From positions 43,992 through 107,991 of the forward strand of contig PHBW01000013.1 in the NCBI GenBank assembly GCA_002840715.1: a stretch of DNA of 64,000 nucleotides. The letters are read 5' to 3'. Below are positions 7,161 through 9,951 of this stretch, in pieces. The DNA comes from Chloroflexi bacterium HGW-Chloroflexi-4 (lineage in GTDB: Bacteria > Chloroflexota > Anaerolineae > Anaerolineales > Anaerolineaceae). The notes beneath the pieces were generated by a model that ran no database searches, was not told the DNA's origin, and was given only the letters and a program-made list of their open reading frames with translations. The position numbers and the translations under genes are program-made. The first letter of the stretch is position 1. Every line of letters starts with the position of its first letter.

Positions 7161-7907
7161 TCAGTGATTCAAAATTTGTGAAAGAAAGAGTTTCGTCCGT
7201 TCATGCGTGGGATTGGTGAAAAAGACAACGGGGGATGCTTTTTCAACAATCTGGCCTTTATCCATGAAGACGACTTCATCCGCTGCCGCCTTGGCAAAAC
7301 CCATTTCATGCGTGACCACAATCATGGTGATGCCTGCTTTGGCAAGATCGAGCATAACTTCAAGAACCTCTTTAATCATTTCAGGATCAAGGGCGCTGGT
7401 CGGTTCATCAAACAACATCAATTTAGGGTTCATTGCGAGTGCACGCGCTATGGCTACACGCTGTTGTTGTCCACCTGATAATTGCGCCGGATAATTATTG
7501 GCTTTTTCTGGAATACCGACCCGTTTTAACTGTGCCATGGCATTTTCAAGCGCTTTTTCTTTTGAAATCTTTTTCACGATCTTCTGTGCCAGGGTTATAT
7601 TTTCAAGCACAGTAAGATGCGGATACAGATTGAAGTGTTGGAAAACCATGCCAATTTCAGAGCGGATTTTATCAATCTGCTTTGAATTGTGGGTCAACTT
7701 TTCACCGTCGATCCAAATTTCGCCGCTGGTTTTTTCTTCAAGTTGATTCACACAGCGTAAAAGGGTTGACTTGCCTGAGCCGCTGGGTCCGAGGATCACG
7801 ATCACCTGCCCCTTTTTAACGGTCAAACTGACACCATCAAGGGCTTCAATGCCGGTGAAATGTTTCTTTAAATCTTGAATTACTACCATATCATCAGCGC
7901 TGCTCAT
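7161..7907 (-). CDS. polar amino acid ABC transporter ATP-binding protein
   Basis: 248 aa, GlnQ/HisP type. Walker [11 protein letters not shown]-loop region '[14 protein letters not shown]', signature [15 protein letters not shown], Walker B '[14 protein letters not shown]' and the switch His in 'VVTHEMGFA' are all present. It powers uptake of a polar amino acid with the permease and binding protein encoded just upstream; its start overlaps the permease stop by 14 nt. Full length for the family. The substrate cannot be fixed from this subunit. Confidence 0.95.
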
Positions 7908-8778
7908 TTTTTTGGATCCGTTTCTCGATAAATTTCATCAAAAAGGAAAGTAAGATCGTCATGGTTAAATACAAAACGGCCAATGTAATATATGCCTCCT
8001 GGTATTGAAACGTTCTTCCGGCATATAGTTTGGCGATCTGAGTGATGTCTCTTACTGCCAACACTGAAACCAGTGATGAATCTTTCAACATGGAGATAAA
8101 ATCATTACCTAATGCCGGCAAAACATTGCGAATAGCCTGCGGCAAAATAATATAGCGCATGGCTTGCCAATAACTCATACCTTGTGAACGGGCGGCTTCC
8201 ATTTGACCACGGCCAATAGATTGGATGCCTGCCCGAAAGATTTCAGCTAAAAATGCACCATAGGTGGTAGAAAGCGCAATGACAGCCCTAGTATTCATGG
8301 GGACTTCATTCTTAATGGCAGATAACCACCCCCCAATACCAGAAACGCCAATCTCGGTCAACCAAATACCAAAAGCTTTTAGTCCGTTGACCACACCTGG
8401 TATACCCACAAATGCAATAAAAAAGATCAGCACGAGCATGGGAATGCCCCTGATCAATTCCACATACAATGTAGACAAGTTTTTGAAAAAAGTATTATCT
8501 GATATTCTACCGAGGCCGGTTAACAAACCCAGAACCAGGGCAAATATAAAGGCAATCAGGGTTGTAGTGATGGTGACGCTCAACCCCGCCTTGATAAATA
8601 AAAATGCCTTTTGAAATGGAATATTTGTAAAAATAGTGATAAAAGTTAAGATTGCAATGGCGATAATCGCGTAAAGCCACCAGGGGGCAGCTCTAAGTTT
8701 TAATCTTAGATACTCACGATATTCGGGCGAATTTCGTCTGGGAGGTTTTACTTTGGCATTCGTTAGTTGTGCCATCAT
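7894..8778 (-). CDS. polar amino acid ABC transporter permease (HisM/GlnP family)
   Basis: 294 aa. An N-terminal cytosolic stretch (1-33) is followed by a first helix and a BPD_transp_1 domain with about five more. The EAA loop is seen as '[22 protein letters not shown]'-like sequence (about residues 193-215), which docks the ATPase. Only one permease gene is present, so it probably works as a homodimer. Two adjacent ATG codons (8778, 8775) could start it. A long hairpin without a T-run lies between this gene and the binding-protein gene. Confidence 0.93.
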
Positions 8779-8836: not shown

Positions 8837-9673
8837 TTATTTAATGTCGTCGTAAGTAATGTTGAAATCAGGGCCAAAGTATTTAACTTGCAAAGCTGCA
8901 AGTGTGCCATCGTCAATCATTGCTTGAAGTGCAAGGTCAACAGGTTCTTTAAGATCACTGCCAAGTGGATAGATAAAACCTAATTCATCACTGGAGATAG
9001 AGGGTCCGATGAGTTCAAGTTGATCAGCATTGGTGCCTTGATAACCCAAACCGACAACTTCATCAATTATGATGGCATCCAGATCGCCGGCGAGCAAAGC
9101 TTGCACAGCAAAGGGGAAGGTCTCAAAAGCCTGAATGCGATCTTCAGGAAGGAATTTGGCTGCGGTTTCATAATTGGTGGTGCTCACCTGGGTGCCCAAT
9201 TTGAATTCTTCATTGGCAACGATGTCTTCGATGCTGGCGAATCTGGTTTCGCCGATGCGGACGAGCAAGCGTTGTTGAATCTGTTGATATCCGATGGAGA
9301 AATCAACCTGTTGTGCACGATCTTCCGTATAGGTAACGCCATCAGCACCGACATCATACTGACCATCAGCCACAGCCTGAATCATGCCATCCCAGGCAGA
9401 TTCGACATAGATGGGGGTGCAGTGCAAACGATTGCAGATATCATCCCATGCTTCATAATCCCAACCGCCGGCTTCACCGGTTGTGGCAGAAATATAGTTG
9501 AATGGAAGATAAGCGTTTTCAACCGCAATTTTGATCTCGCGGCAATCGAGATCAACAATTGCGTCATCCGCTGTTCCCAAACATCCAGAGGCAGGTTTGC
9601 TGCCGGCGCAGGCGCTCAACACAATAATACAAAGCGCTAAAACAATAGCAAGTACAACTTTCGTGTTTTTCAT
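8837..9673 (-). CDS. amino acid ABC transporter substrate-binding lipoprotein
   Basis: 278 aa. A signal peptide ends in lipobox LSAC (Cys 22). The rest is a family 3 (SBP_bac_3) binding protein: 'EIKIAVENAYLPFNYI' opens the domain, and 'VGADGVTYTEDRAQQVDFS' is the characteristic mid-domain motif. GGAGAAGG lies 4 nt before the ATG. It captures an amino acid outside the membrane for the permease and ATPase encoded downstream. A 243-nt 5' leader with a folded element and an intrinsic terminator precedes it (separate entries), so its ligand may be sensed by the leader RNA. The ligand is not readable from sequence. Confidence 0.93.
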   Translation of the reverse strand: MKNTKVVLAIVLALCIIVLSACAGSKPASGCLGTADDAIVDLDCREIKIAVENAYLPFNYISATTGEAGGWDYEAWDDICNRLHCTPIYVESAWDGMIQAVADGQYDVGADGVTYTEDRAQQVDFSIGYQQIQQRLLVRIGETRFASIEDIVANEEFKLGTQVSTTNYETAAKFLPEDRIQAFETFPFAVQALLAGDLDAIIIDEVVGLGYQGTNADQLELIGPSISSDELGFIYPLGSDLKEPVDLALQAMIDDGTLAALQVKYFGPDFNITYDDIK

Positions 9674-9767
9674 TTTTCCTTCTCCTCAATAAAAAGTATT
9701 TACAACATCTTCAACCTGCAAGAGAAGTACAATTGCAGATTGCGGTTACCAAAGTATTTGAGAGCAT

Positions 9768-9795
9768 AAAAAAAACCTTCCCTATGAAGGGAAGG
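9768..9795 (-). terminator. intrinsic terminator inside the leader of the amino acid ABC operon
   Basis: Minus strand: an 8-bp perfect stem CCTTCCCT/AGGGAAGG (9788-9795 with 9776-9783), a 4-nt loop and eight T (9768-9775). It lies about 120 nt downstream of the predicted start of transcription and about 95 nt upstream of the binding-protein ATG. It therefore acts on the operon's own leader and not only on the upstream diguanylate cyclase transcript. Confidence 0.85.
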
Positions 9796-9831
9796 CGGGA
9801 ATTCCTGAAAAATTTTGCTGCTTCTAGGTCA

Positions 9832-9898
9832 ACCTAAATCGAATCAGCGCCCGATACCCTTCGTGAGTGCGGCGTTTGCCTTTCGATGATGCTTAGGT
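9832..9898 (-). ncRNA. folded 5' leader element, candidate riboswitch of unrecognised class
   Basis: Minus strand. Closing helix: ACCTAA (9893-9898) with TTAGGT (9832-9837), continued after a 5-nt one-sided bulge (GCATC, 9888-9892) by ATCGAA (9882-9887) with TTCGAT (9838-9843). Inside are a GGC-AAAC-GCC hairpin (about 9871-9880) and an alternative CGCC/GGCG pairing. The loop contains GAAGGG (9857-9862), which is complementary to CCCTTC in the downstream terminator, a possible antiterminator contact. The element sits between a strong promoter and an intrinsic terminator ahead of an amino acid transporter. I compared it by eye with T-box, lysine, glycine, SAM, c-di-GMP, TPP, FMN and purine elements and recognised none. 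Confidence 0.55.
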
Positions 9899-9922
9899 GT
9901 ATAGACCAATATCATAGGTATG

Positions 9923-9951
9923 TTTATAGCAAACTACAATTTAAAAGTCAA
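9923..9951 (-). promoter_or_regulatory. sigma70-type promoter of the amino acid ABC transporter operon
   Basis: Minus strand -35 TTGACT (9946-9951), 17-bp spacer, -10 TATAAA (9923-9928). Transcription would start near 9916, giving a leader of about 243 nt before the binding-protein start codon. Confidence 0.8.

Follow-up and report, generated by a model that had tools for sequence, protein, structure and literature searches.

What does the RNA hairpin do that stands between a promoter and an intrinsic terminator, ahead of an amino acid ABC transporter operon, in this Anaerolineaceae genome? The original prediction saw in it a riboswitch-like leader of a class not recognisable by eye, sensing the transported amino acid or another metabolite, with c-di-GMP as a ligand worth considering. 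A letter-by-letter check finds the promoter, the helix in two parts separated by a 5-nt bulge, the terminator and the GAAGGG/CCCTTC complementarity just where that prediction had put them (Table 1; positions are those of the window, i.e., the whole 64,000-nt stretch of DNA analysed). What it overlooked is a short in-frame ORF (9915-9844) running through the helices. With this ORF in view, the leader is very probably a ribosome-mediated transcription attenuator with a leaderless leader peptide, reading charged tRNA for basic amino acids. The claim of attenuation ahead of the transporter is supported, the pairing being found to co-vary in relatives, whereas the claim of an aptamer gives way to a conserved in-frame ORF.

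Table 1. Features of the leader and of the operon behind it, in window coordinates
Feature	Position	Strand	Details
Sigma-70-type promoter	9923..9951	-	-35 TTGACT 9951-9946, 17-nt spacer, -10 TATAAA 9928-9923; checked letter by letter
Leader ORF MILVYTPKHHRKANAALTKGIGR	9844..9915	-	ATG 9915-9913, stop 9846-9844; 23 codons + stop; family-wide conservation of the start position, the frame and the Lys-Arg/His codons
Putative stall codons Lys-His-His-Arg-Lys (AAG CAT CAT CGA AAG)	9880..9894	-	K[RH] in 45/47 leaders, K in 47/47
1:2 (protector) hairpin	9832..9898	-	outer helix ACCTAA 9898-9893 with TTAGGT 9837-9832; second part ATCGAA 9887-9882 with TTCGAT 9843-9838; 5-nt bulge between the parts; inner helices
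Candidate antiterminator strand GAAGGG	9857..9862	-	within the ORF, 13 nt short of its end; complementary to CCCTTC 9791-9786; family-mean complementarity to own terminator above all 200 ORF shuffles and all 200 terminator swaps
Intrinsic terminator GCCTTCCCT-TCAT-AGGGAAGGT + T run	9768..9796	-	5′ arm and loop contain CCCTTC 9791-9786
Gene 1, amino acid ABC transporter substrate-binding lipoprotein	8837..9673	-	best NCBIfam model TIGR01096, below cut-off
Gene 2, polar amino acid ABC transporter permease	7894..8778	-	
Gene 3, amino acid ABC transporter ATPase (GlnQ/HisP type)	7161..7907	-	

The first base of the leader ATG lies 7 nt past the -10 box (which a promoter scan requiring T as the last -10 base passes over), and for this reason the ORF is expected to be leaderless, with almost no 5′ UTR. 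We infer the start from the position of the -10 box, and the ORF, most of the hairpin region included, should then be translated as a leaderless mRNA. The spacing is a family trait: 6–10 nt separate the end of the -10 box from the ATG in all 47 family leaders described below, and 0/47 show a tetramer resembling an SD within the 14 nt upstream of the ATG. PMC3160421 describes leaderless bacterial genes as marked by TA signals about 10–12 bp upstream of the start. In the source genome, a strict promoter-ATG pattern has 16 matches, the known leader included, among which no second leaderless attenuator was recognised. Six of the 16 (L080, L085-L088, L092) open an ORF of at least 96 codons, with the ATG 6–11 nt after the matched -10, so that a leaderless look is shared by certain ordinary genes of the lineage.

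Searched as DNA against 147 genomes of the family, the leader recurs in four congeneric species at 91, 89, 88 and 74% identity, and beyond these the best listed match has E = 0.011. As the DNA search is weak at that distance, leaders were located via the binding protein, which has a match with E < 1e-30 in 49 genomes; 48 of them gave upstream regions (up to 800 nt) for the ortholog set, and the last one (G071), whose match is fragmentary and lies at the start of a contig, was left out. The rule defining a leader uses the promoter and the ATG position only. A promoter, an ATG 6–10 nt after the -10, an ORF of 19–33 codons and then an intrinsic terminator are found in 47 of the 48 orthologs, the sole exception (L075) being cut by a contig end inside the leader. 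The -35 reads TTGAC in 47/47 leaders, the spacer is 17 nt in 45/47, and the terminator follows the ORF by 15–59 nt in every one. By comparison, 12 of 235 dinucleotide-shuffled upstream regions satisfy the promoter-ATG rule and 91 of 940 shuffles the terminator rule, with the locus's own score reached by none of the 940. Folding energy, at z -1.51 for 150 nt of the leader (16 of 200 shuffles as good) and z -0.79 for the hairpin part (42 of 200), does not differ significantly from shuffles and is therefore not used as evidence; it is conservation, of the DNA in four congeners and of the architecture in 47/48 orthologs, that lifts the leader above chance.

The family leaders also show what is being conserved. 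Lys is present in all 47 leader peptides, and Lys followed by Arg or His (K[RH]) occurs in frame in 45 of them. When residues were shuffled within each peptide (2000 trials), the pair turned up in 15.2 leaders on average and in 27 at most; the two remaining forward frames of the same leaders give 0 and 4. Since the in-frame pair beats both the shuffles and the other frames, the hairpin region is conserved as a coding ORF. The pair is written in nine codon combinations, with both AAA and AAG and four Arg codons, and the Lys of the first such pair stands at codons 8–13 in 41 of the 45 leaders. Lys, Arg and His together make up 56% of the residues at codons 9–12, compared to 13% at codons 2–5 and 12% at codons 21–30. 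In the two leaders without the pair, L035 and L053, the peptide has KQHRK and VMRHH, respectively. Substitutions between close pairs of leaders number 82, 83 and 119 at codon positions 1, 2 and 3, a weak third-position excess drawn from pairs that are not independent. There is no long run of a single codon: the window's leader has K-H-H-R-K, and several relatives just K-R.

If such an ORF controls the terminator, a part of it should be able to pair with the terminator's 5′ side. The mean best complementarity of the 47 ORFs to the 5′ arm and loop of their own terminators is 17.7, above anything reached by 200 mononucleotide ORF shuffles (maximum 13.65) or 200 terminator swaps (maximum 16.53), so the antiterminator co-varies with its own terminator, and the type of pairing first proposed for GAAGGG and CCCTTC recurs in relatives. 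The 1:2 helix around K[RH] likewise has a family score of 14.89, the maxima being 13.10 in 100 shuffles and 14.12 in 100 swaps. Transcripts reaching as far as the terminator loop were also folded, a ribosome being placed on K[RH] or at the stop codon, or left out. In these foldings, a ribosome on K[RH] leaves the antiterminator formed in 45/47 leaders, against 27.5/46 when the remainder of the ORF is dinucleotide-shuffled; L037 and L059 form none even with the stalled ribosome, and the antiterminator pairs counted for L047 sit just past the ORF. With the ribosome at the stop codon the terminator forms in 47/47. Without a ribosome the antiterminator forms in 20/47, so that the expected terminator is obtained in 27/47, the window's leader not among them, and for the window's own leader, with four antiterminator pairs both with and without the stalled ribosome, the folding model is non-discriminating. 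The best antiterminator segment ends at most 23 nt from the ORF end in 34/47 leaders and further upstream in 13. Judged by the size of a ribosome's footprint, a terminating ribosome could cover the segment wholly or partly in those 34, with poorer cover in the other 13.

Put together, the attenuator would work as follows. Transcription would start at or beside the ATG at 9915 and a ribosome would initiate on the 5′-terminal AUG. When charged tRNA for Lys, Arg or His is scarce, we infer that this ribosome would stall at the Lys-His-His-Arg-Lys codons and open the 1:2 hairpin, freeing GAAGGG, which could then pair with the terminator's 5′ arm and loop ahead of synthesis of the 3′ arm and let the transporter operon be transcribed. 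When basic amino acids are abundant, the ribosome would reach the stop codon and mask GAAGGG, and the terminator would form; with no ribosome at all, the 1:2 hairpin would sequester GAAGGG, with the same outcome. Comparison of the relatives, which gives the ORF, its codons, the terminator and the co-varying antiterminator, strongly supports an attenuator at this locus.

If uncharged tRNA is what such leaders read, those of other operons should carry other codons. The promoter-ATG pattern was run over five relatives, with 47 matches, 46 of which were read. Seven of these look attenuator-like, two standing before a transporter, two before cysK, and one each before lysW, homocitrate synthase and dihydroorotase; the remaining ones are full-length genes or short ORFs without a clear kind. 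Homocitrate synthase, lysW and cysK, which we take, by family resemblance of the translations, to be lysine, lysine/arginine and cysteine genes, were then searched family-wide under one leader rule. They were chosen because they had already matched the pattern, so that the frequency of leaders at these three genes is biased by the choice; codon content played no part in it. The homocitrate synthase gene has 4 leaders among 18 loci (19 matching genomes), all four with KK (2.0 by shuffle, i.e., just twice the expectation) in the motifs KKEGKK, KKECKK and, twice, KKGKK. At lysW there are 14 leaders among 30 loci (of 56 matching genomes), all with a terminator and 13 with KR or RR, compared to 5.3 by shuffle. 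For cysK the count is 12 leaders among 30 loci (of 106 matching genomes), every one with CxC (1.5 by shuffle), six with a terminator by the rule and six with none. CxC is found in 0/47 transporter leaders, and His amounts to 6.1% of their residues versus 1.3–2.3% in the other three leader sets. These leaderless ORFs with codons matching the pathway of the gene behind them support the attenuator reading. As the sensor ORF begins at a 5′-terminal AUG, such an attenuator might have two inputs, tRNA charging and 70S/leaderless initiation, and searches of the open-access literature listed no description of a two-input attenuator of this kind. It is tempting to speculate that leaderless leader peptides form a set spread across Anaerolineaceae, each member reading both inputs and carrying pathway-matched codons (K[RH] for the basic transporter, KKxxKK/KKxKK for lysine, KR/RR for the LysW pathway, CxC for cysteine), but we regard this generalisation as tentative and rather doubtful.

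The same codons bear on the other explanations. Among these, the one that fares best supposes that the leader peptide itself, by way of its Lys-Arg/His within the exit tunnel, arrests the ribosome upon binding of a free basic amino acid or polyamine; the downstream RNA switch would be the same. A nascent-peptide sensor of this sort has a precedent in SpeFL, a leader peptide that senses ornithine, and a short motif kept in 45/47 leaders with no single-codon run does resemble a possible arrest motif. However, with the pair at codons 8–13 in 41/45 leaders, few residues would have been made by the time K[RH] occupies the ribosome's centre, which is short for sensing in the tunnel; the remainder of the peptide differs, by eye, between genera; and the leaders of other operons bear different, pathway-matched codons, as tRNA charging predicts. 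We consider this explanation improbable.

Less probable still is a leader that is constitutive, or relieved of termination by a protein or by the general level of translation (a gauge of free 70S ribosomes), with no amino acid specificity. Leaderless initiation depends on the state of the ribosome, and the ORF directly behind the promoter in 47/47 leaders would suit such a gauge. PMC9031893 describes 70S particles as binding the AUGs of leaderless mRNAs. Such a leader, however, leaves unexplained both the basic codons at K[RH] and the pathway-matched codons elsewhere.

No better a chance can be given to a riboswitch of a new class, in which the 9832–9898 hairpin would be the aptamer and sense the transported amino acid directly. 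The conserved outer helix and the alternative terminator and antiterminator pairings are what such a riboswitch would have, but the helix region is an ORF in which codons, not merely bases, are kept, the best helix varies in register and sequence among loci, the folding energy is ordinary and an Rfam match is absent. The conserved ORF and its codon pair point instead to a leader-peptide attenuator, the very outcome that the original prediction had set against a riboswitch. An Rfam scan of the leader gives no relevant family even at E up to 10, and at gathering scores both the 64-kb window and eight relatives yield tRNA only. The proposed c-di-GMP ligand is not upheld, with no c-di-GMP match in Rfam and a GGDEF/GGEEF motif in the upstream stretch (up to 800 nt) of only 3/48 orthologs, compared to the leader's 47/48; the Rfam scans, the in-frame coding constraint and the lack of a conserved neighbouring cyclase (3/48) led us to reject riboswitch and c-di-GMP together. 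T-box riboswitches regulate amino acid genes according to tRNA charging, frequently via an intrinsic terminator; they bind the tRNA directly, without translation, whereas here an ORF would be translated, and a T-box was rejected as no T-box model matches the window, the leader or the eight relatives. Nor does the Rfam his leader match the window or the leader, and the window's peptide has just two adjacent His codons.

An attenuator reading basic amino acids raises the matter of what the transporter carries. Its binding protein scores 103.8 bits against TIGR01096 (Lys/Arg/Orn), where the cut-off is 256.35. Among solved relatives of the protein the top one is AncQR, which, going by its name, we take to be a Gln/Arg ancestor; ArtJ comes second in one search and fourth in another. 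ArtJ is named an Arg-, Lys- and His-binding protein in a reference title in PMC4022495. Together with the leader codons, this suggests that basic amino acids may be both the signal and the cargo. The leader would in that case let the cell sense a shortage of Lys, Arg or His and switch on an uptake system, and it hints at the kind of cargo carried by an ABC transporter to which sequence models assign none.

In its logic the proposed attenuator is an old acquaintance. The his, trp, ilv and thr leaders of enterobacteria are ribosome-mediated transcription attenuators of amino acid operons, and the present locus shares with them a short ORF, here with putatively relevant codons, alternative 1:2, 2:3 and 3:4 helices, and a terminator before the first gene. 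It differs from them in lacking a Shine-Dalgarno sequence, in a 5′ UTR that the promoter position would reduce to almost nothing, in its mixed basic codons, in its transporter target and in belonging to Chloroflexota. Polycysteine-encoding leaderless short ORFs of mycobacteria have reportedly been described by Canestrari et al. 2020. Mycobacterial leaderless cysteine ORFs regulate translation of the genes downstream according to PMC9031893, work on the polycysteine ORFs is cited in PMC13236596, and an earlier proposal of them appears in PMC4633059. As is proposed for our locus, the codons of a leaderless short ORF tie downstream expression to an amino acid, and these ORFs are the nearest precedent for the mode of initiation; there, however, it is cysteine, translational output and actinobacteria, here basic residues and a predicted transcription terminator, and contiguous Cys codons are out of the question in the window's peptide, which has no Cys. 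The His attenuators of Firmicutes, to which the proposed mechanism is likewise akin, have leaders with three to five consecutive His codons according to PMC9413887, unlike the mixed K-H-H-R-K found here. A leaderless or basic-residue leader-peptide attenuator in Chloroflexi or Anaerolineaceae was not found among titles and abstract beginnings of the open-access literature, and PMC4833913 treats the Chloroflexi group as too small to judge. The attenuator mechanism itself being known, what is most likely new is its combination of a leaderless leader peptide with an intrinsic terminator and mixed basic codons, in Chloroflexota. One candidate orphan riboswitch is thus removed and a concrete, testable attenuator class put in its place, in which leaderless initiation would be coupled to the textbook mechanism of alternative hairpins.

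How far does the leader extend? Under the same rule, 0/27 class-level loci outside the family (L169-L195; drawn from 109 matching genomes outside it, four of the loci having less than 400 nt upstream) have a leader with terminator, and one of them (L187) has a promoter-like short ORF with the terminator absent. Among 70 named loci, which largely repeat genomes of the ortholog set and are kept apart from the count of 47, 41 have leader and terminator, two (L150, L162) a chance-like ORF without terminator, and 27 none; those labelled Anaerolineaceae among the 27 are L101 and L139, the latter cut by a contig end. Cultured strains with the leader include Bellilinea caldifistulae GOMI-1, Ornatilinea apprima P3M-1, Longilinea arvoryzae KOME-1, Anaerolinea thermolimosa IMO-1 and Thermanaerothrix daxensis GNS-1.

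Several smaller observations were made at the other operons. Short KK-type ORFs stand before a terminator upstream of homocitrate synthase in L242, L243, L245, L248, L249, L254, L256 and L258, with the motifs KKEGKK, KKECKK, KKGKK, GKKPE and DKKPD; L242, L254, L256 and L258 are leaderless by the rule, the other four are not. In the upstream regions of cysK (L291-L320) CxC is often followed by an RG motif (CMCPRRG, CLCLGRG, CACPGRG), and cysK of the source genome (L302) has, by eye, an apparently SD-led CxC ORF, MNQKCLCRRRGAI. Upstream of a dihydroorotase-like gene, L198 (in genome G070) has a promoter-proximal ORF of 47 codons, which spans two hairpins resembling terminators and stops shortly beyond the start codon of the gene that follows; the hairpins and the gene's name were judged by eye, and the arrangement may be a pyrimidine attenuator.

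At the transporter loci themselves, the interval between terminator and binding gene holds a second conserved element, GGAGGT, in 29/47 leaders, 16–84 nt after the terminator (L038, L044, L046, L048, L050, L052, L055, L056, L067, L070, L076-L079 and others). Lys/Arg-type codons often come after it (GGAGGTGCCACTAAAAAGAC, GGAGGTGTGCCAAGAAGACC), and clear uORFs read by eye behind it in L070, L076 and L077, and behind another SD in L074, encode MKKIKPKQ, MKKYKIQHQK, MKKYKILP and MKKYKIK; the element may be a second, translational attenuator. The window's clade (L032-L036) has no GGAGGT element. In its place the window (9713-9750, minus strand) and its close relatives L033-L035 have a common hairpin-like stretch, GGTAACCGCAATCTGCAATTGTACTTCTCTTGCAGGTT, with small differences. 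Finally, L129, a locus without the leaderless leader, has an SD-led ORF rich in Lys, Arg and His, MQIKENCKFMRKYVKMNHRQHGLICRTLISK, roughly 200–310 nt upstream of the binding gene, followed, by eye, by a terminator, AAAGAGTGTGGC/GCCGCACTCTTT, and by a second promoter closer to the gene, and it is possibly an analogue that is not leaderless.
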